Shown piece by piece: positions 4,301 through 51,865 of a DNA stretch of 64,000 nucleotides (its first letter is position 1; the number at the start of each line of letters is the position of its first letter). A program made the position numbers and the translations under genes. The stretch comes from Corallium rubrum (lineage: Eukaryota; Cnidaria; Anthozoa; Scleralcyonacea; Coralliidae). Under the pieces are notes generated by a model that saw only the letters and a program-made list of their open reading frames with translations, did not search any database and was not told the DNA's origin. The stretch spans positions 9,583,793 through 9,647,792 of the forward strand of contig OZ036007.1 of the NCBI GenBank assembly GCA_964035015.1, given 5' to 3'.

Positions 4301-7300
4301 GGCTATATATTACCAAGTTCTTTTATCTCTGCAGACCAGAGTCCCATCACAGAAGAACCGTGTCTTGGCCCAAAGGCTTTTGGCTTGGTCCCAGTCCAGA
4401 ATCCTCCACAGACCTCTAACCCCACATCTCCAACTTCTAAGAGAGACCACAATGGCCAGAGCAAACTTGAGGATAAGATCACAGCTCTAGAACAACAGTT
4501 CACATTGCTTCAAAACAAACACGACATACTTCAGGAGTCGCACGATAAGTTAGCCCAACTGGTTGAAGCTCAGAATCACTTACTAGCCTGCCATACTGCA
4601 CCTCCTCCCACACGAGAAGCGCTGTCCAGTTTCCCCGCAGACGAATCTGAGTTTATCCAATCACCCACGGAAGTAATCTCGCCCATTTCCCAAGCCCCGG
4701 ACTTACCACGAGGCAAACGGTCGCAGGGACCCGTACAACAGTTTAAACTTCCAAGAAAAGTAACCGCGAAGGATATCATTCGTTTATGGGAAGAGGGAAC
4801 TCGATATTTGCCTCCCGTCAAGAACTGGTCACCTGCTCAGAAGATGAAAGTACAAAGTAAGCTTTCTCGCTGGAAGAAGATCATTGATATTTTTAAAGGA
4901 GAATGTAACGGAGACATGGAAAACTTTGAGCAAAAGTACTCGGGGGAGGTTGGGGAACTACTGCCTGTCACCACCATCTTAGCCCTTCACGAGAACCAGT
5001 TATCGTCTGAATTTTTAAGCAGAGGCTTCAGTAATACCAAACTCAACACAATTGAACTCAAGTCGCCTTTGGAGTTCAAGAAAGAGCCCGAAGACGAGGC
5101 TCCCGAATTGAACAACGAGGATTCCACGACCGCCGACGAAGACATTCTCGTGAAAGGCGCGAAATTTGAGAGTGGGGAGACGAACCGTTATGTTCTTCCT
5201 CGAAAGGTTACGGCACGCGATGTGGTCCAGCTGTGGGATAGCGGCTGTGAAGATTTTCCCGCCATTGGAACTTGGACCAAGGCGCAGAAAATCGGCCAAG
5301 AAACGAAGATCTTCCGGTGGCGGAAAATCGTGGATATTTTCAAGAAAGATTGTAATTCCGATTGGGACATGTTCACTGAGAGGTATTCGAACGAAAAAGG
5401 AGAGTTATTGCCATTGGCTACCATTCTAGCGAAACACGAAGCGATTTACGCACAAGATCAAATGATCACCAATAAACAGACTCCAAATAAGTCCGAGGAT
5501 AGTGATGCGGAGAAATCCACGCCATCGGAAGCCGTCAAGAATGAGAAGTCGCCACGTGACCCCAATTGCGTCACCCTCCCGCGCAAAGTCACCGCCTACG
5601 AGGTGGTCCGCTATTGGACCGAGGGCAGCGAGACCTTTGGACCCGTGAAGGACTGGACACGAACCCAGAAGATGGGTCAAGAGACGAAGATAAGTCGTTG
5701 GAAGAAAATCTACGAGATCTTTCGCTACCAGTGCTATAGAGACTGGGACGAGTTCTGCCAGAGGTACACCAACCAGAGAGGTGAATTGTTGCCAATAGCA
5801 ACGATTCTAGCGAAATATGAAGCGGAGAATCCATCCGGTGTGCCGAGCTATCAGCTTCATGGGAAGGAATCTCCGGGAAGGGTGACCCCCGGTGCTGCGT
5901 CTCACGACTCAGCAACAGACGGCGATGATAACCCTGCAGATGGAACCTGGGCTCTAACGGAACGCACCAACATCATGATCTCGGTGAACGATAACGGGGA
6001 GTACATACTGCCGTCCAAGCTGTCGCCGGTGGAAGCGTTGTCCCTCTGGGAGCATGGGACCGAGCAGATACCACCCATCAAGAATTGGACCGACGAACAA
6101 GTCGAACAAGCGGAACAAACGTCACTACTGACAACCATTCGTCATCTTGCGCAGATTTTCGAACGAGAATGCGGCGGTCATTTTAGAAGATTCGTGGAAA
6201 GATTTTCGGACGCCGATGGTGAAATTTTGCCAATCGCTGGTATTATTTACTCCAACCAGTCCCGGAAATATTCGCCGTATTTCACGGAGTTTGAAAAAAG
6301 CATCAAACAGAGTCGGAGCAAAGGAGAGCAATACGAGCTACCGAAGCGAGTTAGTGCTAAAGAAATCGTCTGGTTGTGGGAGCACGGTTGTCGGCAATTC
6401 CCACCCGTCAAGGCATGGTCGTCGGCTCAGAAACTACGATACACCACGAAGCTTTGCCGCTGGCGGAAAATTGTCGAAATCTTTCACCAGAAATGCGACA
6501 GCGACTGGAGAATCTACGAAGAAAAGTACTCGAACGCGAGTGGCGAACTGCTCGCAATTTCAACGGTTATCTCGATGCAAGATGACAGCGATAATGATAG
6601 CTACGCTTCTATGATAAAGAAATCAATTAATTCCCCAGAAACGAACGGGAAAGTATGGTCGCGTTCCAGTACGTCCATGGAATCACAGGCAAACACCTCG
6701 AAGAACAGCGAGGGTGATCTAAGTATCCATGAAGGTGAGACTTTGAGGAATGACTTGTCGAAGGATGACCCATCGAAAGAGTTCCATTTGCCGAGAAAAG
6801 TGAACGCTCTAGACATCATCAATTTCTGGGAATGCGGTTTTGGTGACATGCCTCCGGTCGCACAATGGAGCCCGCTTCAAAAGTTCCGTCAACGAAGTAA
6901 GATTTCACGGTGGAGTAAAGTCTATGATATCTACAAGAACCACTGCAAGGCCAACATAGTAGAATTCGAGAAACTATACTCTGATAAGAACGGACAATTG
7001 TTACCCGCTACCACCATTATCTCCATGTATGAATCACGCGTTGACGGAGACTCGTTCAATGGCAGTTTCGAAGAGGAGGCTGCCGCCCCTACTGGTCCAG
7101 TTGTCCGTAGGTATGTCCTACCCCGGAAAGTCGACGCCAAGGATATTGTCCGACTATGGGATAAAGGGAACAACGACTTCCCAGCGATCGGGTCGTGGAC
7201 AAAAGCTGATAAAATTGGGCAAGAAACGAAAATCTTTCGTTGGAAGAAGATCGTGGATATTTTTAAGAACCACTGCGGTTCTGATTGGACTCTGTTCGAG

Positions 7301-7384
7301 GAACTCTTTGCGAACGAGTACGGTGAACTTTTACCAACAAGTGCAATCATAGCTAAGTATGAAACCACTTGTACGAAAAATTAA
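1385..7384 (+). CDS. seven-module Trp/Lys-rich repeat protein, probably nuclear
   Basis: Three exons join in phase: 1385-1437, 2043-2452 and 4335-7384. All junctions are GT/AG, and the 2452/4335 junction splits codon GAC. First ATG in exon 1 is 1391, giving about 1168 residues; an upstream 5' exon is possible. TTG at 4385 is not the start. Exon 2 carries basic clusters (KPRK, YKRRKVEV) that look like nuclear localisation signals. A coiled coil lies near residues 196-236 (LEDKITALEQQFTLL). Seven modules of about 83 residues start near 289, 438, 565, 709, 819, 969 and 1079. Consensus pieces are LPRKVTAxDIVxLWxxG, then FPxIxxWTxxQK, TKIxRWRKIxDIF, a Cys, and YSNxxGELLPxATI. Module 4 is degenerate; modules 2 and 7 are closest. 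I do not recognise the module. Conserved Trp and basic residues would suit a DNA- or chromatin-binding fold, but that is inference. No frameshifts or stops are seen. Confidence 0.8.
1495..1879. mobile_element. Tc1/mariner-type MITE in an intron
   Basis: The ends form an inverted repeat (CCATAGAA... and ...TTCTACGG, then AAAGTAGTG on each side) and are flanked by TA on both sides (1493-1494, 1880-1881). The interior holds repeated AGTAGTGGCCCCC motifs. No ORF. It lies in the intron between the first two exons of the seven-module gene. Confidence 0.75.
2941..3384 (+). repeat. 445-bp dispersed repeat, copy A
   Basis: Near-identical to 7638-8079 in the same orientation, starting CTTTCTCAAAGTCC and ending GGAGCAAGTCTA. 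It contains short internal inverted repeats (AAGTCCTTT / AAAAGGACTT; GTCCGCCTCTT / AAGAGGCGGAC). Copy A is in intron 2 of the seven-module gene. Probably a non-autonomous mobile element; its class is not clear. Confidence 0.85.
3533..4300. mobile_element. foldback element with tRNA-like arms
   Basis: Flanked by a 12-bp direct repeat GGCTATATATTA (3521-3532 and 4301-4312). The arms pair over a long stretch (TAATTGTCAGTTGTTTGC at 3566 and its complement ending at 4300). The left arm contains a tRNA-like sequence on the - strand (about 3640-3720: D-arm GGCTCAATGGTTAGAGCG, T-arm GGTTCGAGTCC), and the right arm a partial one on + (about 4190-4245). Inside is a second inverted repeat (3758-3779 / 3819-3841) and a GGTATCGATACC-rich patch near 3955-4000. 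Confidence 0.7.
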
Positions 7385-7607
7385 ACTGCGCTTTTCCATA
7401 CATGCTTTTCTAAGACATATTATGCCAAGAACATCGCTCTCGATTTTTTAGATATACATGATTTATTTTATATAGCATATATAGCCCATCGGATGGAGCG
7501 CTGATGTTGCAAATGCATATGTACCAAACTGAGATTTTCAAATGTTTTCTTTTCATTATGAAGGTTTAGGGCAAATATTTAAAGAAAATATGTTGTGTTC
7601 TGTTTCA

Positions 7608-12988: not shown

Positions 12989-12994
12989 GATCCC
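12989..12994. other. target-site duplication GATCCC, left
   Basis: GATCCC directly before the left end of the 10-kb transposon, repeated directly after the right end (22986-22991). Confidence 0.8.
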
Positions 12995-13354
12995 TACGGT
13001 GGCCCGTATGTGCAATGCACAAAACAAAATGTCAGTGCACAAACAAAAGTTCGAATGCACAACAAAATAAAGCGCAATGCACAACGACATAATTTACCGC
13101 TAATGCACGACAAAATTTTCCGCGATGCACGACAAAATTTTCCCCGATACACGACAAAATTTCCCCCGATGCACGACAAAATTTTCCCCAATGCACGACA
13201 AAATTTTCCCCAATGCACGACAAAATGTACGACGATGCACTGAATGCAGAACAAAGTTTACAGCAATGCACAACAAAGTTTAACCCAGTGCACAACAAAA
13301 ATTAAATGAGATGCACAACAAAAAGTTCTCGGTATTTAAAAAATGGGGTCTGGG
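12995..13354 (+). repeat. left terminal inverted repeat
   Basis: After the terminal TACGGTGGCCCGTATG come irregular, then regular, 22-23-bp units built on ATGCACGACAAAATTTTCCC. The repeat ends at about GGGGTCTGGG. The short Cys-rich open frames here are translations of the tandem unit. Subterminal repeats of this type commonly bind the transposase (family knowledge; not shown here). Confidence 0.9.
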
Positions 13355-13492
13355 GGACTATACGTAACAATACAGCATTGATAAGATCGCGACAGTTGGA
13401 AGTGAAATCACTGAAAAACAACCGGATTCATTTGATTTTATTGTCGTTGTAATAGTTTAATAGAGGTAAGTTAAGTAGAACTCAGTACATGA

Positions 13493-14771
13493 ATGTTTTG
13501 TCCTTTTTGTGGTGAAACTGTGCAAGTTACTTTCAAATATTGCCCATTTTGCGGACGTGAGTTACCAGAGTTGAGAAACGATCAAGAAGTTTTACATGGC
13601 AACGTCGATGAAGAGCTAATTGCTGAGGGTGAGAGCTGTGACGAATTGATAACACGTTATTTCAAACAGGGCTTTGCTTATCAGAAAATTCTACTGTTTC
13701 TCTCTAAATATCACGGTATTGAGATTTCCTTACGGACACTTCATACCAAGCTTCGAATAATTGGTCTCCGAAGAAAGAACAACAACTACGACCTAAATGC
13801 CGTTCGTCATAGTGTTCAAGAAGAGCTTGATGGTCCTGGCTGCTCAGGTGGTTACCGAGCTGTTTGGCACACCTTGCAAATGGAGGGGAAGCAAGTCCCT
13901 AGAGAAACCGTCCGAACACTTATAAATGAATTAGATCCTGAAGGTGTACAGGGAAGAAGAGCAAGATGCCTCCGGCGAAGAAGTTATTACACACCAGGGC
14001 CCAATCATTCATGGCATGTAGATGGTTATGATAAGCTGAAGCCATATGGCTTTCCAATACATGGTTGTATTGATGGCTATAGTCGGAAGGTCTTATGGTT
14101 GAAAGTATGCAAGACAAATAATGACCCCACTGTCACAGGTCAACACTTTCTCGATGCAGTTGAAAAGTATGGTGGATGTCCAACATTATTGAGAACAGAT
14201 AATGGGACTGAAAATGTTATTATGGCTGCAATACAGGCTTTTTAGAAGTGGTGGTGAAGACAGTTTTGCTGGAGTCAAGGCACATCGATATGGATCATCA
14301 CCTGCTAATCAACGCATCGAGTGTTGGTGGTCATTTCTACGAAAGAACCGCTCCAACTGGTGGATAAATTTCTTTAAAGACTTAGTTGAAGAAGGACACT
14401 TGAATACTGCAAATGATATGCAAAAGGAATGTCTTTGGTATTGTTTTTCCCAGCTATTGCAACAAGATTTAAATTTTGTAAAACAACACTGGAACTCTCA
14501 TTATATTAGGAAATCAAGATTTGACACTGTTGCTGGAAGACCTGATGAACTGTACTTCCTTCCAGAGTGCACAGGTGCACTAGATCATATTAAACTTGTC
14601 ACTCAAGTTCAATTTCAAGATATGTCTCAATATTGTTATGGCTATGAAAAAGAAAGTATTATCCAAGAATATTTTCAAACAGTTAAAGAAGAGCTTGGTC
14701 TGTTGCAACCTACAAATTGGAGACAAGCTCTTGCTATGTATCACACTCTTAGTGAAATTGCTCAGGGTTGA
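13493..14771 (+). pseudogene. integrase-core (DDE) transposase, one frameshift
   Basis: Residues 1-21 are a zinc ribbon (MFCPFCG... YCPFCG; C3, C6, C17, C20). Next comes a helix-turn-helix-like region (YQKILLFLSKYHGIEIS), then GGYRAVWHTLQMEGKQVP and RRRSYYTPGPNHSWHVDGYD. Catalytic residues: D177 (WHVDGYDKL), D236 (LRTDNGTEN), then Glu at 14319-14321 (NQRIECWWSF), 39-40 residues after the second Asp. The C-terminal domain includes WWINFFKDL, HWNSHYIRKSRFDT and GRPDELYFLPE. The frame breaks at a T5 run near 14235-14240, between D2 and E, so the ORF ends at 14245 and resumes from about 14238. Family: integrase-core DDE proteins common in cnidarian and fish genomes. The ATG at 13493 is chosen because it places the ribbon at the N-terminus, as in the HECT gene of the same element. 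A GTAAGT at 13467 could be a 5' UTR donor. Confidence 0.85.
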
Positions 14772-15821
14772 GTTATATCTTCATTGTTATACTGATGTAA
14801 CTGCTAACACAGCATTTAATTTTAAGTATACTGGATAACCCTATCAGTTATAATTAAACGGTTTACCTTGGGAGTCCAATAAGTAAGGGCTATCCCTTAT
14901 TACCCACAGGAAACTTGACTGTCTATTTGGTAAAATGAAACTGGAAGCAATCTTCTAAGCAAAAAGTAGGTTTAATTTTAATCATGTAACATCATCGAGC
15001 AGAAATTGGGTTGCAGAGGTGAAAAGCATGTGCACTAACCAAGTAACCAACATCCTCAGCTTTCCTGTCCAGGAAATCTACTGGGGGTGTTGGTAGCACA
15101 GTGGTTAGTGCACAAGCACAGTATGAGTACATGTATATACTGCACATATACAAATGATTTCTTAAGATATTAATGTTACTACTCTGAGTTTTATGCATAA
15201 AGCCACTGTTGGGTAATGGATATTAAGCAATATTATAACTATATACATATAGAATGTTATAGAGGCAGACCATAGAAGGCTCCAACTTGGATATGAATGT
15301 TGCTCTTGATGTGATAGTAATATATAATTCAATGTATTTAACAATTAGAATAGACTATGAGCTTGAAATTTCTATGAGTGAATAGTTGATGAAAGTAGAG
15401 CTTGAGTCTTTGAGTCAACTATCATATATATATATACATATATAAGCTTGTTGAAAAAAATTCTGAATAAAACCAATATGTATTTTGTTAAACTGCTGTT
15501 GAAAGAAGCTTTTGTATTGTACAATACAGATAAGATAGTGTCCTAAAGATCTGTTGTATGATGAAAAAAGCTCCATATATATATATATGTAATATATCAT
15601 ACATGAGGAGGAGTGTTTCATCAGGATATCCAAACACCGAGACGTTTGTTGAAAACCGGGACAAAGCCGAGGTTTTTGAACAAAGTTTTCGAAGAGAAAA
15701 TCAAGGTAAAAGTTTGCTTAATTTATGCAATTTCTTCCTCCAACATCCAAACCACAGACATGGTACTACTGATTTCCTTTGTGTTTTCCTCATGAATTAT
15801 TAATGAGTTATTTTAATTATT

Positions 15822-15907
15822 AAGGATTTACATTGCAAGTGATATTTGAAAATTTTGCCAAAATTTCACATAATTTTCAAATATCACAAGTAGTGTAAAT
15901 CTTTAAT
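15822..15907. repeat. small foldback (MITE-like) hairpin
   Basis: Arms of about 35 nt with few mismatches (TTAAGGATTTACATTGC / GTGTAAATCTTTAA; AGTGATATTTGAAAAT / ATTTTCAAATATCAC) around a short loop. Only palindromic arms, no coding capacity. Confidence 0.7.
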
Positions 15908-16286
15908 TGTACGAGCAAAATCATGATTACTCATTTATTATATGCATGACAAAATTACGACACGTACGCTTCATACTCACTCACACCTTGTTTCATTACT
16001 TGACAAGATACATTTTCACTCTGAGTGTTCTCTGTACTCAATTTTTATGGCATTTAATAAATGGAATTTTTATGGAATTTAATAAATGGAATTTTTAGTT
16101 CATAGTGTACCACAAGTCGTTGGAAATGTGAAAACTTTCCATTGCAGAAATTGGCCACCATTTTAAATTTTATTGTCAACCTCATTCCCAGGGCCTTCTC
16201 TATTTGTATTAATTGTACTGCAGTACAATTAATAAAATAATTGTACTCCTCTCAGCCAATCAGAATATAGTAATTAAATTTTGTCA

Positions 16287-16289
16287 TGC

Positions 16290-16348
<59 letters not shown>

Positions 16349-16456
16349 TTTTAAGTAAGAAACAGTCAGTTAAATCCGCTCTGCCTATGTATAGGTATCG
16401 AGCACTCCTCAATCTACTACTAACATTATATTTACTTGGTATATTTATTTACTTGG

Positions 16457-16520
<64 letters not shown>
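16287..16520. repeat. two (TA)n microsatellites
   Basis: Long perfect TA tracts at about 16287-16343 and 16461-16520, separated by about 115 bp of unique DNA. Confidence 0.95.
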
Positions 16521-16523
<3 letters not shown>

Positions 16524-16529
16524 TGTAGC

Positions 16530-19500
16530 TTACAGTTTGCTAAAGACACCTCCATTCATCAGAGCTGTCAGCAAATAATGTCCAATATTTCCTTCCACTG
16601 TATTCTTATTGACATACAGGTATAACATATTTGAGCAGGTCTGGGCACACGGTATATTTTTGGCATCATCGTGGACAAAGGAAATTATGGGTTTGGGTTC
16701 AAAACCGACTGAAGGAACATCTGTAGCCCCAGTGGCAAACATAAGAATATGGCTTGGGGTCACAAGAGGGATAAAATTCTTTTCTTTTTCAGTGAGTTGT
16801 ATACCATCATCTTCTAATTCTTGCTTCAGTGTTCCATCTGCAATCAGAGTACACAGGAAAATAGCATCTTAAGTTAGTTGCACTATCAGGCCACATGTAC
16901 TGATTTACACAGTTACTGTACTTCGAAGTGGAGTCACTGTACCTTCAGTAGACTTCAAGAAAGCAATGAATTTAGCCATCACAATTTCTTGTGCCTGTCT
17001 GCGATTGTGTCCCTGTGGTGCGAAATCTGGTTTAAGAATTTTGATTACTTGTTTGGTATCCAGTTTGTTATCTGGGACATACTTGAAGAGGTGTTCGGCC
17101 ATTCCTTTATTAGCCCGGATGAAATCCAACATCTAAAAGCAATTAAGAAAAACAAACTAAGATGTAATCGTCAAGGTAACAAATGATGCTCTTCATAAAA
17201 CTGACTCTACTAACACACATGCATTTTCCTTACATCATAATACTTTAAACCATCAAGTAATTGCTGCAACATTGATTGGCACTTTATGATAACGAAGTAT
17301 TTTGTCACTTCTTCGATGAAAGTTTGTTTTTTCTCTAGTGATATAGTTGCAGATAGACCATCAATGTCGTATTTCCAATCACTATCGGCCATAAATGCAT
17401 TTATGTCATCTTGCGTTGTGGCCTCTTTCAACTGTAAAAAAAAAATACAATGAATACTTTAAAATATTATTGATAACAACGCTAATAAGTTCCAAAAAAT
17501 ACCCGGAATGATTATATTAAAACAATTGAAGATAATATGATAACTATACGTCAATGTGCGTATGTATTTCTATCCGTCTATCGGCCATGTCATATTCAAC
17601 GATTTGCTTTTAAGCTCAGTTTACGCTTTGAAGTAGGCTTGCGTCGCGTGAAGCGTCTTGAGTGAAGATGATACAGTATGTGTGCGTCTTTACATACACA
17701 ATTACATTATTTCCATCGTGCGCGGGTTTGCGCGACACATGTCTTTCAAGCGTAAATTTATCTTTATTCTAGTTTAATACATATTGAAATTATTTTAACA
17801 TACTGTAGTTAAGTATAGTTCTGCGACACGACCAAACGAAGTTCTCGTTTTCTCTTTTTGATAATGAACTGCTTAGTGAAGCTAGATTAAATAGTAATAT
17901 CACAGTGGGGTTTATCAGTTATGGGTTCATCTGATCGCTATCGGCCTGAGAGAACTGCATAGAAAGACTGGATGTCACGATAACAAATGAAACAATACAA
18001 CGATCATAATATTTCATTTTTGTATACCTTGTAAAGTGAATTCCTGACGTTTCGGTCCGACACCTCGTCAATTTCTGGCTTGGAATTCGCAAACCCAGCT
18101 TCAATGTATTGGCACATGGCACCGGTTAGTAGGCGTGGCAGCTCTCCGCCTTGTATGATGATGGTAGCCAACATTGCACCAACAGTCAAGAATGTGTCGG
18201 TTTGTAACGCTCTTACATTACACCTTACAACATGTCCCTTGGGTGTGTCTATAGTATATGAAATAAAATTTATACAATATAAATAAGTTTTGTGGAAACA
18301 CCACGTGAGTCAACAGGCCGAAAGATTAGCAAAGAAATATTTTGCGTGGTGTTTCCACAAAACTGATTTATATTACATTATCGCCATGAAAACTTTCAAA
18401 GAAAATTTATACAATCAATATTTATAAATGAAAATGAAACAACACAACAATAGTTTTGTTCAACGAAGCACAAAGGAAATGCAGCTTAATCCTACCATTT
18501 ATGACGAAATCTAATCTTTGTGACTTTTGGAAAATAGCAAAATTTAGTTTCTGCAGTAACTAATTGTCAGAAATTAATTTCTACTCACGTAATATATTTC
18601 GGTCAGTATATATTTCCTTAAACTGGAGAACAACTGGGTTATACCGCAGTAATTTTGGTGAAGGAAAATTTCGAGTGTAGAATATATACATTATAAGACC
18701 AAACTGGGACCAGTTGTGAAAAATGCAACATCAAGGCCTTCCGGCCAGGAATTGAACCCACGACCTTGCGATACTAGTGCAGTGCTCTGACTCTAGTCTC
18801 TCTAATATTACTTGTAATATACCCAATTCTACTCCAGGCATTACCACATTATATATACAGAACTCGTGGCCAAGCTCTTGGCAACGGTTTCCGTAGCTCA
18901 GTGGTCAGAGCACTGCACTAGTATCGCAGGGTCGTGGGTTCAATTCAGAGGCGTAGCCAGGATTTTTTGTCAAGGGGGGCCAGGAAAAACCTAGGGGGGC
19001 CCAGCTTAACTGAGGCATATGAAGCCAAATTTTCCCAGGGGGGCAGTACTTTTGCCAGAGGGGGCCGGGGCCCCTTCTGGCTCCGCCTCTGGTTCAATTC
19101 CTAGTCGGAAGGCCTTGATGTTGCATTTTTGAAACTGGTCCCGGTTTGGTCTTATAATGTATATATTCTACACTCGAAATGTTCCTTCACAAAAATTACC
19201 TAGAACATCCAGTTTAATCGAGTGAAATGCCTAATATTACTTGGGTTATACCTCAGCTGTTTTTCAGTTTAAGCAAGAAAAAAACCCTGTTATATCTTAA
19301 AGTACGTGACCTATATCAGTTCAATTTCGTGTCGCCTAACTTTACACACGTTATATTCCCGGTGATAATAATTTAATTACCGTTTTTCCCTTAGACTATT
19401 TGACAATGTGTTCTTGTTGAATTCGGTACGCTACTTTTTGTGTCACCAAAAGTGGTTTGTTTTCCACTTGTTTTCTTATTTCTCAGATATTCTAAGACTT

Positions 19501-20626
19501 TTTACTTAAGCGCTGAATTATGTTGTATCACAGGAGGTCCAGAAGCGCGTGTGTAAGGGGAGCCTGGCCTTCCTGTGGCAAAAACATTTGCAAAAGTGCA
19601 AAATACATAGTTTCCCAAATTGCTATGTTTATGTGTTGCAATAAACAGTAGCTTTAAGACTCTTAAAGTTGCAAGGTTTGCATCAAATTTTGTGGCAACA
19701 CATTTTTATCCTATTGCTTCTCCACCCATTTCCCAATTCTTATGCCTTTTTTTAAAAAATTGGGAAACCCAAAGAAATATGTCATTCAAGCTTTATATAT
19801 CAAGGAGCGAAGAAATATATAATAATTTTACTCACTGACTAATGAACCACTGTCCTTTGAAATGGCTCCTAGAAGTAAATGGAAGAATTCTCGTCTAGGA
19901 CCACCAAGGTCAACAGCATCCTCCTCACTTTCAAAAGTTGCAAAGGTTACTTGCAACATACCAGATCCCTTTAAGAACCCCCTGCGCTTGAAGTATGGCT
20001 GTGCAGTTTGCCAAATGCTTAAGCGGCTGATCACTATACTTCGATGTTCTCCCTGCACTTTATTTGCAGCGTGTTGTTTAATTAACGTCATAAAGTTTTC
20101 GCTTGACACAGCAACTGGATCCTCCTCCTCAACAGGTTCTTCTGAATGCTCGTGTTTATTCAAACTATTCTGTATGGCTTGTTGCACGGCGTCAGTTTCA
20201 TCGATTCCGATTGGTCTGTGGTAAACATAAATTATGTTTAGGTTTTAAAGATGGATAATTTTGCGTAATAGTATATAGACCCTTTTAGTAAGTATCGAAT
20301 ACGTAATTTTCACTCTATGACGTCAAGTTCTTTTCAATTTTTCTTTTGTTTTCTTTTCAATTTCGTTTATTGTCTTAGCTTTTGTATATTTTCAATAGAA
20401 TTCAAAAGGCTGAAAATGACGACAAGGGTGGAAAATGACATATTCCGCACTTATTAAAAGGGTCTATATCCTAACGGTTTATCTAACTTCTAGATTCTAA
20501 CATTCACATTTCTAACATATATTTGTAACCAACTCTGTCAGTTGAGTAACGTACACAGTTTGTAAATATTTATTAGTATTATCTAGGGTAAATAAAGTTT
20601 ACCATATGGTCTTCCATGCCGTGTCG

Positions 20627-20675
<49 letters not shown>

Positions 20676-21516
20676 CAGTGTTATATCCAAGCATTACTTA
20701 CAGGAAATCAGTGACAGTGTAAGGTACTAATCCAGCATCTTCAATCTCTCGATCACTGAAATTAAATTCACCTTCCATTTCCAAGTCTTCGTTGAAGAAA
20801 TAGTCTTCTATTTTTGGCTCTTCTTCTTCTTCCTCCTTTACACCAAGCAAATCTATGATTGGCACTGTGCCTTTCCCACCTTTTCCCTTCTTTTCCGAGA
20901 CAGGACAAAGAAATAGCGTTATTCTAGAATAGGCTTTTCCAAGCCCTTCCTTGTATTTCGCCAGGGTGAAGGCCTCTGAGGATCCGGGTATGGTGCGTGC
21001 TGATCTGGCGTCCGGATAGACTAGCACATATCCACGCTTACGAGCAAAAGTACGATCATAGTCCTCCCACTTCTTCAGGGACCTTTCTAACACCTCGTCG
21101 TAGTTCATATTCTTCAGTACTTTCACGGGGAAAGTCTTACCACGAAGTGGTTTTGCCTCACCCGCCTCGTACTCCATCAGGCCAATACTGATCAGCACTT
21201 CTTCGTTCTTTTCTGTCGCACGTATCTTTTTTCTTTTCGGTTCGAAATGCGACCTTCGCTCACTTTCTTTTTCTTTCATGTAAGACGCTAAACTGCCAAC
21301 AGAAAGAGAAGATTTTGTCGAAGTAGGCTCAATTCTAGTTGTTTCCGTTCGCGCAGAGCGGGGATCGCGATGTCCGCTTGAAGTGGAAGTTGAAGCTGCG
21401 TTGGCAGTTGAAGCAACGTTATCATCCGCTCCGGCTCGATCAGTCTTTTTCTTTCCACAGGCTGGGCAGTAGGCAAAAGTTGCCTCCATGTTGCATCCGC
21501 AAAAACAGCAAAACAT
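16530..21516 (-). CDS. HECT-type E3 ubiquitin ligase with N-terminal zinc ribbon (transposon cargo)
   Basis: Six coding exons, complement of 16530-16837, 16943-17132, 17234-17431, 18028-18248, 19836-20215 and 20702-21516: 2,112 nt, 703 residues. Every junction is GT/AG and in phase, with no stops. Residues 1-21 are a zinc ribbon (MFCCFCG... YCPACG; C3, C6, C17, C20) that aligns without gaps with that of the transposase at 13493. A low-complexity Ser/Thr linker, a conserved middle region (LRGKTFPVKVLKN, RKRGYVLVYPDARSART) and an acidic stretch follow. The HECT domain begins near residue 330 (FESEEDAVDLGGPRREFFHL). Catalytic Cys is about C669 (CAQTCSNMLYL), in the C-lobe. Architecture resembles the G2/M-phase-specific E3 ligase-like (G2E3-like) proteins amplified in cnidarians and fish. 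HECT enzymes pass ubiquitin from E2 to substrate through that Cys. Being complete while the transposase is broken, it may be retained by selection. Confidence 0.88.
18278..18370. repeat. short hairpin in HECT intron
   Basis: Arms AAATAAGTTTTGTGGAAACA... and its complement TGTTTCCACAAAACTGATTT pair over about 27 nt around a loop of roughly 38 nt. Looks like a tiny palindromic element just inside the intron between HECT exons 2 and 3. Confidence 0.65.
18649..19257. mobile_element. foldback element with tRNA-like arms, interrupted
   Basis: The left arm (GTGAAGGAAAATTTCGAGTG, then TATACATTATAAGACC) is the reverse complement of the right arm (to about 19200); the right terminal sequence runs to AATATTACTT near 19250. 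Each arm carries a tRNA-like stretch (18890-18946: CGTAGCTCAGTGGTCAGAGC, GGTCGTGGGTTCAATTC). Same family as 39588-39888. The right arm is split by the element at 18947-19090. Lies in the HECT intron. Confidence 0.75.
18947..19090. mobile_element. 144-bp MITE nested in the foldback element
   Basis: Ends AGAGGCGTAGCCAG and CTGGCTCCGCCTCT are inverted repeats. Flanked by a 10-bp direct repeat GGTTCAATTC (18937-18946 and 19091-19100), which is the T-arm of the tRNA-like sequence. The interior is G-rich on + (GGGGGGCC motifs). A 9-10-bp duplication suits Mutator-like or related families (inference). Confidence 0.8.
20626..20675. repeat. (GTT)n microsatellite
   Basis: About 16 GTT repeats in the first intron of the HECT gene, 27 bp beyond its exon-1 donor. 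Confidence 0.95.
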
Positions 21517-21726
21517 TTCTCACAAACCTTTCGCCTGGTTTCAGATGGTTAAAAGGAGCACTGAAGCTAGATGAAAGACTATTTAACGTTATGCGGATTT
21601 TTCCGCGATAAATGACTGTGCCGAGGTTCTTGCCTTTTTGGTTCGGTAGTTCTCTCAAACTTCGTTAAATATATTCCAAGTGCGCTTATATCTTGACGTA
21701 ACTGTGGTTAGAGTTACTCAGCAGAT

Positions 21727-22195
21727 TTATTTCTCTTGCGCAAACAAACGTGATTGTTGTGAGATATTTCTCTTGCGTAAATTAATAAATGCGCAGTCAC
21801 GGTTGATAACGTATTTCTCTTGCGTAAACAAATGCGCATACAATGATGGTTGTTATGAAATTTGTATTTCTCTTGCGTAAATGCGCAGTCACGGTTGATA
21901 ACGTATTTCTCTTGCGTAAACAAATGCGCATGCAGTGATGGTTGTTATGAAATTTGTATTTCTCTTGCGTAAATTAATAAATGCGCAGTCACGGTTGATA
22001 ACGTATTTCTCTTGCGTAAACAAATGCGCATGCAGTGATGGTTGTTATAAAATTTGTATTTCTCTTGCGTAAGCAAACGCGCAGTCTGATTGTTGTTGTG
22101 AAATATGTTTTTCTCTTGCGTAAACAAATGCGCAGTCATGGTTGTTGTGAAATATGTATTTCTCTTGCGTAAGCAAACGCGCAGTCCGCATGGTT
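21727..22195. repeat. tandem array upstream of the HECT gene
   Basis: Ten copies of a unit starting TATTTCTCTTGCGTAAACAA and containing ATGCGCA, spaced about 40-53 bp, with two alternating tail types (GTCACGGTTGATAACG and GATGGTTGTTATGAAATTTG). It lies 211 bp upstream of the HECT ATG, read on the - strand, where the unit contains TGTTTACGCAAGAG (FOX- and C/EBP-like in look). May be a promoter/enhancer array or transposase-binding subterminal repeats. Confidence 0.85.
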
Positions 22196-22603
22196 ATTTG
22201 TAATATGGCTATAATAATAATTTATTTCATCACAAGATAATATACATTGTACTAATTGATATGAGAAAAAGATTTTTACAGTTATAACGAAGCACTGTCA
22301 TGTAATCAGTTTATTCAGTTAGGAAATTGGATACTATATTTTCCAGTGTTAGTGTGCCAATAAAAGTCTAACTTTGTGATCTATCTTCTTGGCGTCATAG
22401 CATGTTTAGTCGCTGCTACTACAGCAATACGTCACTTTTGGTTTTTCAATGCTATATCCTTAATGGCTATTGAGTGATGCTTCATATCATACTAGACACG
22501 TTCCAATATGCTGGAACGCTGAACGCACGGCGTCGCCTTCGCCGTTCTATTTATTACAAATGCGAGAATCTGCGTAGTGTTCAGTTGTGCTGTTGTTGTC
22601 CTA

Positions 22604-22985
22604 CCCAAACCCCATTTTTTAAATACCGAGAACTCTTTGTTGTGCATCTCGTTTAATTTTTGTTGTGCACTGGGTTAAACTTTGTTGTGCATTGGTGTAA
22701 ATTTTGTTCTGCATTCAGTGCATCGTCGTACATTTTGTCGTGCATTGGGGAAAATTTTGTCGTGCATTGGGGAAAATTTTGTCGTGCATTGGGGAAAATT
22801 TTGTCGTGCATCGGGGGAAATTTTGTCGTGTATCGGGGAAAATTTTGTCGTGCATCGCGGAAAATTTTGTCGTGCATTAGCGGTAAATTATGTCGTTGTG
22901 CATTGCGCTTTATTTTGTTGTGCATTCGAACTTTTGTTTGTGCACTGACATTTTGTTTTGTGCATTGCACATACGGGCCACCGTA
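22604..22985 (-). repeat. right terminal inverted repeat
   Basis: Reverse complement of 12995-13354 with one additional 22-bp unit and about five substitutions. The unit TTTTGTCGTGCATTGGGGAA recurs. Ends GGGCCACCGTA, followed by GATCCC (22986-22991). Confidence 0.9.
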
Positions 22986-23145
22986 GATCCCCCCTAAATA
23001 ATTGGTTATGACGTATTTGGTAGCCGAATTACCGGTGGACGTCACGCACAAGTCACAATTAAACAATGAATAACTAATTAATTATTGAAAGTCACTTTAA
23101 TACGATCAGACTGATTCATCATCTGCGAAGGAGACTGGATTCATC

Positions 23146-26738: not shown

Positions 26739-28634
26739 TCATGAGTTTTGTAATATTTCTGATTGTGATATATCGTGGATTTGTGACCTTGGCTTGTATG
26801 CTGGCCATCTGCAAACTGGGCAGTTGAGATTTCGGCAGTGGTTTCCTGAATTAAACCATTTCTCCAAACAATGTTGATGAAATACATGGAGGCACGGTAG
26901 AGCCACCATTATGCAGTCTTTGATGTACAACTCAAGACAGATGACGCACTCTTTTCCCAATATGATATTGACTGGCTTGTTGCAGTTCTGACAAACATTT
27001 GGATCACAGATCTGAAGTGCCTTTTCTTCTAATTTTCCAACTTTTGCAGACTGGTTTTGCATCAATGGTTCACAGTCACAATTTTTCCATAACGGAAGGT
27101 CTTTTACAAAGTCTGTTGGTAGCAGTGGATGAAGCCATAAATCAGGAATAGCCAGTCTTTGAATAAGTACATCAAATCTTTCTTCGAAACCTCTCATATT
27201 AGGAGATGGACTTCCAATTGTCCGAAATGAGGAGAAAAATCTCTGGAAATATGCAATATCTTGGTAAAACCAATCAGGTGTTTCCTCATCCTCTTCATCT
27301 GACCACATGCAACACTTAAATCGTTTCTTTAACTTGTTTACACACAATCCGTATACACAAAAACCCATAAGGAACCACATGGGACTTTGTGAATAAGTCA
27401 GGAAATTATACCTCACAAGTGATGCAAGATCACTACCCATAATAAATCGAGAGATTTTGAGTCCAATGTTCAGGACTGGCTGAATAAATGCCAACTTAAA
27501 CACGCCCATCAATGGAAGCCAACTTATAATCACAGCTGTATTGGCAACACCAATCAGAAGAAAGAATTTCACAGATTTTCTTAAAACACCACCAGGAGTC
27601 AAAAAGAGTTCCAAAAAACAAGCTTGGTTGACAAGTATTATTGCTAGTAAAAATAAATCATTCACTTCTGGATGTATGTTGGTCAGAAATAGTTCCATTG
27701 CTTTGTAATGAAGCACTTCCCCTTTCCGTAAACCGTAATAAAATTCCTTTTCTGGTGTCACAACCAAAATTTTGGTTTGGATGCCAGCTTTTTCTTGCAC
27801 CTCATGAATATTGTGTTCTGTAATTTTAAAATATCCAAACTTTACCCTGCCTGTGAATTTTATAGACAGAGATGACAACAGTGCAGGTGGGTCATCTAAT
27901 CGCCCAAAAAGGACAACTTTGGTCTGGCCAAATCTCTTATCTTCGTGCAAAAAATGCAAGTATTCTCTGTGTGTATGGAGTTTCTTCACTTTCTTTGCTA
28001 AGATAGAGTTCATCCATGAAAACACACGCTCTACCGATGGTTTAGAATTGTAAACATTGATCATAACATGGCCTTTGGGTTTATTACTTTGGGGTGATGA
28101 CAAAATTAAACACTTTTCCTCCCATCCGTTTCTTGAACAAAGAAATGGATCTAGGTTACAGTCGAATACTCCAGTTCGTATTCCAAAACGAGAGACCTTT
28201 TTGGACAATTGTTGCCATTGTTTCTGCCGCAGAAGGGGTCTTTTGTAATGAGGTATAACTAAGACAAGCCAACCGCTTGCCTTCGTGTCCTCTACGTCTT
28301 CGTAAAGGTGCGAAGAACTTGTAAAATGAGTGATTTCCCCATCACCTTCGCTCTCCTGTCGATCGTTTTCAAGATTCGGACAATTCTCCTCCGAGTTAAA
28401 ACTACCAGATTCTTTGACAAGTTGTGCTAACTCCCTTTTGTCGACCACACCAGCATAACTAACTCCCCTTTCGTCCAGTAAACTCTTTAATTTTTTTACG
28501 CTTAGGGCAAACGGATTGAACAAAGGCGATGCCACACAGCTAAGCTCGAGCCAGCTCGATGAAATGTCGAGTACTTTTGCTGCTACGAAGACTAACAGCA
28601 AATAAATTAACACCAAAACCACCTTAGCCAACAT
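26739..28634 (-). CDS. RNF103: RNF103-like ER membrane RING-H2 E3 ubiquitin ligase
   Basis: One uninterrupted exon of 631 residues (vertebrate RNF103 is about 685). The N-terminal hydrophobic segment (VVLVLIYLLLVFVAA) targets the ER. A luminal region with thioredoxin-like flavour follows (residues about 100-290). Hydrophobic segments sit near 320-345, 355-385 and 410-435 (FLLAIILVNQACFLEL, LLIGVANTAVIISW, MWFLMGFCVYGLCV). A cytosolic acidic stretch (SDEEDEETPDW) precedes a C-terminal RING-H2 (CVICLELYIKDC, ALPCLHVFHQHCLEKW, CPVCRWP; about residues 560-608). The long WF/PDLWLHPLLP region and the position of the RING support RNF103 over other RING proteins. It would ubiquitinate ER-associated substrates with an E2. 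ATG at 28634 starts the signal-anchor. Confidence 0.9.
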   Translation of the reverse strand: MLAKVVLVLIYLLLVFVAAKVLDISSSWLELSCVASPLFNPFALSVKKLKSLLDERGVSYAGVVDKRELAQLVKESGSFNSEENCPNLENDRQESEGDGEITHFTSSSHLYEDVEDTKASGWLVLVIPHYKRPLLRQKQWQQLSKKVSRFGIRTGVFDCNLDPFLCSRNGWEEKCLILSSPQSNKPKGHVMINVYNSKPSVERVFSWMNSILAKKVKKLHTHREYLHFLHEDKRFGQTKVVLFGRLDDPPALLSSLSIKFTGRVKFGYFKITEHNIHEVQEKAGIQTKILVVTPEKEFYYGLRKGEVLHYKAMELFLTNIHPEVNDLFLLAIILVNQACFLELFLTPGGVLRKSVKFFLLIGVANTAVIISWLPLMGVFKLAFIQPVLNIGLKISRFIMGSDLASLVRYNFLTYSQSPMWFLMGFCVYGLCVNKLKKRFKCCMWSDEEDEETPDWFYQDIAYFQRFFSSFRTIGSPSPNMRGFEERFDVLIQRLAIPDLWLHPLLPTDFVKDLPLWKNCDCEPLMQNQSAKVGKLEEKALQICDPNVCQNCNKPVNIILGKECVICLELYIKDCIMVALPCLHVFHQHCLEKWFNSGNHCRNLNCPVCRWPAYKPRSQIHDISQSEILQNS

Positions 28635-32054: not shown

Positions 32055-33629
32055 TCAGGCGGACAAAGGTCTTGCAATCGGCGAAAGCGAAGGGACTTGG
32101 AATTGTGGTGAAGGAACGGTGGAAAGGTTAAGGTGACTTTGGGCAGCCAACGCCTTCTTTGCTTCTTCCTCCTTCTTTGCGGCCTCTCGAAGGTGGATCT
32201 TCATGTGGCGTCTTCGTTCGTCCGAGCGAGCGAAACGACGACCACAGGTATCACAAGCGAACGGCTTCTCTCCAGTGTGGGTACGAATGTGAGTGGTGAG
32301 GTGGTCTGAACGCGAGAAGTTTCGCATACAGATGCGACACTGGAATGGTTTCTGGCCGGTATGGGTTCTCATATGACGAGTGAGTTCATCGGAGCGAGAG
32401 AACCGTCTCGAGCAGGTTTCGACAGGACAACCGTATGGCCGTTCGCTTGGTGGTGTCTTGGATCTCTTTGACAGTTGGTCGTCTCGTTTCACTTTCAAGA
32501 TCCCATTGCCAGTCTTGATGGGTCGGTGGTTTATAATAGGCTTGTTCATCTTGCCGAGGTTGTTGTTGTTGAGGAAGTCGTTTGGTGTGGCGTTCAAGAG
32601 TTTGTCGATGCTGGCATCGAGTTTCATGTTCGGCGAGAACTGGTTGGGGTCGCTGATGAGTGGCCATTTCATGTTTACGGTGGCAGTGGCCTGAAGGTAG
32701 GGAAGGGAAGACAAGGATTGGGTCTTTGGGTAAGAAGGGAACGAAGGCGCCTGTTGGAGTTTCTGGTACGTCTCGAAGTACTGCTGTTGTTGTTGTTGAA
32801 GCTTCTGAAGAATGCCAGCTGGTTGCGGTTGAACGTTGTTTTGGATTCCACACGACTGTTGGGGCAGGGAAGCTTGAGTTGGGAGAGTGTTGGACATGGT
32901 AGAGCTTATCGGGTTAGCGTTGCTTACCAGCGATGTGAGGACAGTGCTGCCGGGGTTCCAGAGACTGTGCAGGGGAGAATTGTATGGCGAGGTTTGTGAA
33001 GTCGGTGGCGGTGTCGTGGCGGTGGATGAAAACACGTCGCAGAGAGAATGCGTCTTAAACTGGTTCAAACTTTGCGCGAACTTATTCAGTTGGTTGATAT
33101 CTGGTTTGATGTCGGGTTTTACGTCTTTCAAGTCGGGCACCGTTGCCTCAAAGTCGAAGTCTCCTGTTAAGAAAAAAAAAAGCGAGAAAAGGTTAATTAC
33201 CCGAAGACGAAGCCGGGGAAGACATACACTCTAAACAAACTAATGATTATTCGCAAACTGCACGTAACAACAAAAAAAGTAACTACAATTAACGTTCTTA
33301 TAAAGCCTACATAGGAAGTACAACTTGTTTCGGCAATACTACACATAAAATTCAGAAAGACGTGGGCGAACCCCCGAAGACGAAGGCTTCTTCCCCCGAA
33401 ACGATAAAAGACAACAAATCGGTCAGCTACCTGGTACGGTCTGTTCGTTTAAATCGACATTGAACATATTGGTTGGGTCTTCTGCAGCAACCTGTACCAG
33501 TGAGAGCTCGTCAAGACAAGTTGGATGTTGGCGGTACAGTTGTGGAGTAAGGAAGCCATTCGGATCGAAGCCGAAGAGATGGTCGGTTGCTACTTGAGCG
33601 AGGCTTTCTAACGCATCCATGGTCAACAT
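32055..33629 (-). CDS. EGR: EGR-family zinc-finger transcription factor
   Basis: Two coding exons, complement of 32055-33163 and 33431-33629: 1,308 nt, 435 residues. The split codon at the junction is GGA. Exon 1 encodes [20 protein letters not shown]. The middle is Ser/Thr/Pro/Gln-rich (trans-regulatory), including a Q run (KLQQQQQQY). Three C2H2 fingers lie near residues 306-390 with TGQKP and TGEKP linkers. The recognition helices RSDELTR, RSDHLTT and RSDERRR match the Zif268/EGR1 set, so the expected site is GCGTGGGCG-like. A 45-residue tail contains [11 protein letters not shown] genes are immediate-early regulators induced by growth or stress signals. The ATG at 33629 is the first; an alternative Met is three codons on. 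Orthology within EGR1-4 cannot be set, as those arose in vertebrates. Confidence 0.93.
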
Positions 33630-51117: not shown

Positions 51118-51514
51118 TAAGTCTCATACATACAGCCTTTCAGGCCCTTCCAATACTACGTTCTATAAGCTAGCCTTTATCATGAGTGATTTCTTGCTAT
51201 CAGTTATTTTGACTTGATTGACATTTTACTGTTCCATCTCTAGCAATTGTATATACAGTGAAACTTTGCAAGAAAGCGGAGAAACTAATGCACTTGACGA
51301 TAGAAGAACCGGAACAGACATTTACAATGAGATGTACACGTTAAAAAGTGATCTCAACACGCACCAGAATTGCTGGAAAACGTTATGAGAATTATGGCGC
51401 ACGTTTAAAGAATGGTAGCGCACGTTATGAAAACGGTGATACACGTTAAGAAAACAGTGGCGCACGTTGAAATAATAGTAGCATACGCTAAGAGAACTAA
51501 CAGTGCGCTGATGG

Positions 51515-51865
51515 CGCACGTTGACTGAATGGTGGCGCACGTTGACCGGGGGATGGTGGCGCACATTGATCGAGTGGCGCACGTTGATCGAATAGTGGCG
51601 CACGTTGATCGAATGGTGGCGCACGTTGACCGAATGGTGGCGCACGTTGATCGAATGGTGGCGCACGTTGACCGAATGGTGGCGCACGTTGATCGAATGG
51701 TGGCGCACGTTGACCGAATGGTGGCGAACGTTGATCGAATGGTGGCGCACGTTGATCGAATGGTCGCGCACGTTGACCGAATGGTGGCGCACGTTGATCG
51801 AATGGTGGCGCACGTTGAAATAATAGTAGCACACACGTTGACGAAACTATTCGCTAATGGCGCAC
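51515..51865. repeat. 21-bp minisatellite
   Basis: About 15 copies of GGTGGCGCACGTTGATCGAA+T, alternating GATCGAAT and GACCGAAT versions. Open frames on both strands are translations of the repeat. The alternation suggests growth by 42-bp dimers. Confidence 0.95.

Follow-up and report, generated by a model that had tools for sequence, protein, structure and literature searches.

A two-gene, IS3EU-like DNA transposon is the reading that best explains the element found at positions 12995-22985 of the window (the whole 64,000-nucleotide stretch of the Corallium rubrum genome that was analyzed). According to this reading, to which a probability of roughly 0.6 is given, a predicted HECT ubiquitin ligase has stayed and diverged together with the transposase and is likely brought to the ends of its own element, or to the transposase, by means of a similar N-terminal zinc ribbon.

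The element comprises 9,991 bp and is bordered by terminal inverted repeats (TIRs) of 360 and 382 bp with TACGG..CCGTA ends (Table 1). The two TIRs differ by one 22-bp unit and five substitutions, and within the window the 18-mer TACGGTGGCCCGTATGTG of the termini is confined to the two element ends, also with up to three mismatches tolerated (0.01 expected). A sequence-only reading of this DNA had described the TIRs, the 6-bp duplication GATCCC and an inward-reading transposase and six-exon HECT gene, all of which could be re-found.

Table 1. Features of the element and its borders, in window coordinates.
Feature	Position	Strand	Remarks
Target-site duplication GATCCC, left	12989..12994		directly outside left end
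Left TIR, 360 nt	12995..13354	+	start TACGGTGGCCCG; ~22-bp ATGCACRACAAA units
Transposase, first open frame	13493..14245	+	zinc ribbon (residues 1-25); rva_4/rve integrase core, first part
Transposase, second open frame (other frame)	14193..14771	+	rest of core (NQRIECWW motif)
HECT exon 6	16530..16837	-	HECT domain end, TCSN motif (TCFN in aligned known ligases), stop
HECT exon 5	16943..17132	-	
HECT exon 4	17234..17431	-	
HECT exon 3	18028..18248	-	
HECT exon 2	19836..20215	-	HECT domain start, GGPRREFF
HECT exon 1	20702..21516	-	zinc ribbon at residues 1-25; ubiquitin-like beta-grasp domain predicted at about 103-207
Imperfect tandem repeat, unit about 100 bp	21728..22191		between HECT start and right TIR
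Right TIR, 382 nt	22604..22985	-	
Target-site duplication GATCCC, right	22986..22991		directly outside right end; perfect match to left

The two genes are convergent, the transposase reading inward from the left and the HECT gene from the right. The DDE transposase proposed at the left was borne out in its integrase core, as the Pfam family rva_4 matches both frames (E 4e-19 and 1.7e-11). Since this core is split over two frames, the window copy is not intact: a frameshift near 14240 interrupts the catalytic core. The whole protein of 426 aa is represented by P0002, which is 98% identical to the window transposase.

The HECT gene consists of six exons with 703 codons, and GT-AG borders are present at all five introns. 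Pfam HECT (PF00632) matches its product above the curated cut-off, with E 1.1e-11, and an alignment of the HECT relative from the compact element L047 with RSP5 places TCSN over TCFN, whose cysteine we take to be the catalytic cysteine of HECT ligases. On this basis of sequence, the second gene is predicted to encode a HECT ubiquitin ligase. The ribbon at its N-terminus was modelled by AlphaFold with a pLDDT of 86, and modelling also predicts the ubiquitin-like domain behind it. Among four intronless HECT relatives scanned, a CUE domain was recognised in two, with E-values of 3.4e-8 and 1.4e-4. G2E3 has PHD-type fingers before its HECT domain; Pfam gave no PHD match for the window HECT protein (E up to 1) or for four of its relatives (E up to 0.01), which leaves the earlier label "G2E3-like" without support.

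The window HECT protein can be aligned, except for the ribbon, with P0001 from the soft coral Dendronephthya gigantea, an uncharacterised protein without the ribbon that shares 56% identity with it (89% of the query covered). This match by itself would make an octocoral or relative the likely host. A 454-aa frame on a contig of 1,647 bp (P0139) spans exons 1-3 continuously and without introns, which suggests that it derives from a spliced transcript. The upstream extension of a further protein, P0138, back-translates to two ATGCACAACAAA units with a spacing of exactly 22 nt (two sites were obtained in 2 of 2000 shuffles), a hint that a TIR may adjoin HECT in another source. The tandem repeat upstream of the HECT gene is a possible promoter region. 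HECT intron 2 contains inverted 74-nt arms (92%) at window 18649-19199; the stretch looks tRNA-like by eye, and no tRNA gene was found there by ARAGORN.

Outside the element, a likely host reading frame runs from window 23146 onward, about 160 bp past the right end. Long minus-strand frames are located at window 26739-28634 and 32055-33140, one of which presumably ends RING-like and the other presumably contains three C2H2 fingers of the EGR type. Furthermore, an open frame of 999 aa with repeated modules lies at window 4385-7384, and a frame of tandem NVRHHSI-type repeats at 51322-51834 is probably a translated simple repeat.

The host assembly (474 Mb, 312 contigs) was searched with the left TIR, resulting in at least 54 matches (40 of 135 candidates scored), part of which were examined. 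Nine distinct long TIR-bounded sites were picked by the TIR search alone, and all nine contain both genes or parts of both: the window, C34, C39, C8:27976642, C13, C15:1008448, C28:11683247, C281 and C82:1083727, the last examined in its two outer 10 kb. A copy on C14 (362-kb contig; L029, L020) has reverse-complement flanks in common with the C13 copy (L018-L019) and carries extra insertions; because of these flanks, it is probably the other allele of the C13 copy.

Both ends were examined at 14 distinct sites, including the compact elements L044 and L047, which were added since both genes were already known there. TACGG..CCGTA termini were found at all 14. The 6-bp duplications are identical at 12 sites (GATCCC, TATATA, GAGAAA, AAAATC, CCTTTT, CAGAAC, CCTTAG, TGTTTT, GTAATT, CATTAG, TCTTTC and CTTATG) and match in five of six positions at two (C15:1008448 and L047), with C34 and L047 being less informative due to their location in TA repeats. 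Other TIR pairs of the assembly, divergent families included, do enclose HECT and transposase genes together with 6-bp duplications, and this supports the earlier proposal of the ligase as cargo or accessory factor of the element.

The copies most similar to the window element (family 1) are blockwise colinear with it, with insertions. In C34 and C39, neither gene is interrupted, and the transposase can be read through over 426 codons. The HECT frame has neither an inner stop nor an indel in the window, C34 and C39, i.e., at three of six family-1 sites, and differs from the window by two silent and one replacement change in C34 and by three silent and one replacement change in C39. For the family-1 transposase, comparison with C34 and C39 results in dN/dS values of 0.66-0.80, the differences being too few to show constraint.

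For a genome-wide view, both proteins were used as queries, yielding at least 98 matches for the transposase (98 of 1352 candidates scored) and at least 85 for HECT (63 of 787 candidates scored). Grouping of matches on the same strand with gaps below 8 kb led to 40 HECT and 97 transposase loci among the matches listed. A scored transposase lies no more than 15 kb away from 28 of these 40 listed HECT loci (0.26 expected; C161 is entered twice, and C13 and C14 are both included), and the orientation is convergent in all 28 pairs. Two of the remaining 12 HECT loci sit in examined elements (C14:198565 and C28:11685237). Seen from the transposase side, a HECT match is present at 27 or more of the 97 scored loci, which is a lower bound. 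In addition, four more transposases (the 7th, 8th, 11th and 12th listed among the transposase matches) were picked before the HECT matches were known; 3′ of each lies a convergent HECT gene, complete or partial, and one of these genes is absent from the HECT matches listed later. In this genome, the transposase gene is regularly accompanied by a gene for a predicted HECT ligase. A broken relative of the rva_4-type transposase was also seen in a sponge-symbiont bacterial MAG contig (L002; 49% in the best segment), probably due to host contamination.

The convergent layout of transposase and HECT, with paired TIRs and 6-bp duplications, occurs in three TIR families of this one genome. The family of C28:11683247 (family 2) has the same six-exon HECT layout as the window, at an identity to family 1 of 47.1% for HECT (667 codons, pN 0.354 vs. 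pS 0.854) and 56.0% for the transposase (364 codons, pN 0.289 vs. pS 0.840). The same layout at these identities indicates that the gene pair has been together through a long divergence, and replacement differences between the HECT genes are fewer than silent ones. HECT is intronless in five compact elements, which were selected because their gene pairs were already known; four of them have frames of 708-822 aa, and the frame of L043 (594 aa) is interrupted. As HECT has been kept with the transposase across families, an accessory factor is indicated rather than chance cargo.

Both window proteins start with MFC..CG, followed by Y/F and CP.CG at equal spacing. Zinc ribbons are common. Among the proteins listed, the pattern is present in 47 of 120 transposases and 14 of 20 HECT relatives, several of the non-matching models starting late; Pfam (E up to 0.01) gave no match to the ribbon of the L044 transposase. 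In L047, the TIR (51-716 and 6815-7459, 95% identical) holds both start codons, the 119 nt after both ATGs are identical, and the first 40 residues of the transposase are those of HECT. Pairing was analyzed in six lineages with both starts in the fetched DNA and a CxxC..CxxC ribbon on both proteins, family 2 and L046 being left out. The mean ribbon match was 0.52 within elements and 0.33 between elements, and the true pairing was the best of 720 possible ones (the best of 120 when L047 is left out, and likewise for C255). In family 2 and L046, HECT carries the ribbon and the transposase lacks it, so a ribbon on both proteins is not always needed. A recent duplication of the ribbon within family 1 was considered and rejected; HECT ribbons agree with family-1 transposase ribbons at 4.61 of 15 free positions, a small margin over the 3.76 of 15 with others, and the pairing analysis above is the stronger comparison.

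In the proposed mechanism, the element would move by cut and paste, and the ribbon would read the element ends or let transposase and HECT pair, by which the ligase would come to act at the transposition complex. Its substrate is the least certain part; the transposase complex itself is preferred, where the ligase would affect activity or clear the complex once strand transfer is complete, and a host protein of silencing or repair is ranked behind it. A true element ligase could instead mark host silencing proteins for degradation away from the complex, with the ribbon as a generic binder. Such an anti-silencing factor has precedents in fungal IS3EU and other fungal transposons, whose TET/JBP genes are thought to counter methylation silencing (PMC12730594), and would agree with the predicted ubiquitin-like domain of the ligase and the CUE domain of two relatives. 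We consider it rather unlikely, since in six elements the ribbon is closer to that of the own transposase than to those of other elements, which is unexpected for a common host target.

Even less probable is that an ancestor captured a host HECT gene, which now hitch-hikes without aiding transposition. Parts of HECT are indeed lost in some copies: no exon 1 was seen in C13/C14, C8 and C15 contain indels, and C281 has only a broken exon 1. Neither gene was found at three short two-ended sites (C37, 1.8 kb; C51, 2.2 kb; C12:11132415, 1.65 kb), at C1:9200114 (2.9 kb, ends unclear) or within the 10 kb examined inside the single TIR end C8:13607174. The TIRs and 6-bp duplications kept by the short copies of 1.65-2.2 kb indicate that some elements were mobilised by proteins acting in trans. 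A mere hitch-hiker is argued against by the recurrence of this convergent gene order at many loci and across three TIR families, by the constraint at 47% identity and by the HECT frame remaining intact at half of the family-1 sites. That a host HECT gene came to lie between two TIRs by accident or through an assembly artefact is refuted by the copies at separate insertion sites on different contigs, each with its own duplication. A lone copy would not have sufficed for this, and nothing in favour of such nesting was seen.

With the two-gene transposon as the preferred reading, a broader generalization is offered tentatively and with somewhat less than even confidence. Animal IS3EU elements may form a two-protein, ubiquitin-dependent system, in which one ribbon addresses the transposase and the HECT protein (with its ubiquitin-like and in some cases CUE domain) to the same ends, the extreme case being a ribbon encoded by the TIR and kept identical. 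Many stray cnidarian HECT genes would then largely be transposon genes, and expanded sets of HECT genes in cnidarians may consist of transposon copies. A ribbon common to both proteins via the inverted repeat would be a simple way of addressing two proteins to one place.

Among known systems, RAG-like transposons have a transposase and a partner that are unrelated to those of the coral element, and RAG1 contains a RING ligase domain. They resemble the coral element in their two convergent genes (PMC7204232). Kolobok elements are likewise DDD/E transposons with lineage-specific accessory proteins, which are nucleases, a RecQ helicase or KolX in place of a ligase (PMC9587614).

The IS3EU superfamily is characterized by TA..TA ends (TAYGG..CCRTA in fungi), usually 6-bp duplications and a DDD/E transposase (PMC10045372, PMC12730594). 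The coral element resembles it in its TACGG..CCGTA ends, 6-bp duplications and DDE transposase, and the assignment rests on these three features, the Pfam matches of the transposase being to the integrase core only (PF24764/PF00665). IS3EU is further described as having no HHCC motif upstream of the core; a CCCC zinc ribbon is seen in many of the transposases analyzed here. In fungal TET+ IS3EU families, an alpha-kinase gene is placed opposite to the transposase (PMC12730594, PMC10045372). The coral element differs in that its second gene is a HECT ligase and that, in several elements, both proteins carry a zinc ribbon. No HECT gene in IS3EU was found in the literature searched, Repbase and most subscription papers being beyond its reach. 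While the ends, 6-bp duplications and multi-gene fungal members of IS3EU have already been published (PMC10045372, PMC12730594, PMC10853768, PMC3520738), it is new here that ribbons, where both proteins have them, match better within than between elements, and that the L047 TIR encodes both.

The IS3EU-related Styx of Zymoseptoria is also a multi-gene element with a 6-bp duplication (CATAAG); its four ORFs encode the transposase, GATA and CCHC proteins and a DUF3577 protein, and copies with a degenerate transposase are still mobile (PMC10853768). The coral element carries a HECT gene, whereas none is named in the consulted part of that report (PMC10853768).

Ginger1 of Hydra, like the coral element, is a cnidarian integrase-type transposon with a ubiquitin-system enzyme, and its authors propose a role of the ubiquitin pathway in transposition (PMC2836005). 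Its ubiquitin- or SUMO-removing enzyme, an OTU or Ulp1 protease, is a domain of the transposase, in contrast to the separate ligase gene of the coral element (PMC2836005), and its duplications are 4 bp long (PMC10045372) instead of 6 bp. No OTU or Ulp1 domain was found in Pfam scans of the coral-element transposases, which sets them apart from Ginger1. Ginger1, with its removing proteases, would find its counterpart in a DNA transposon that brings its own ubiquitin ligase, and the old idea of a ubiquitin pathway in transposition would become directly testable.
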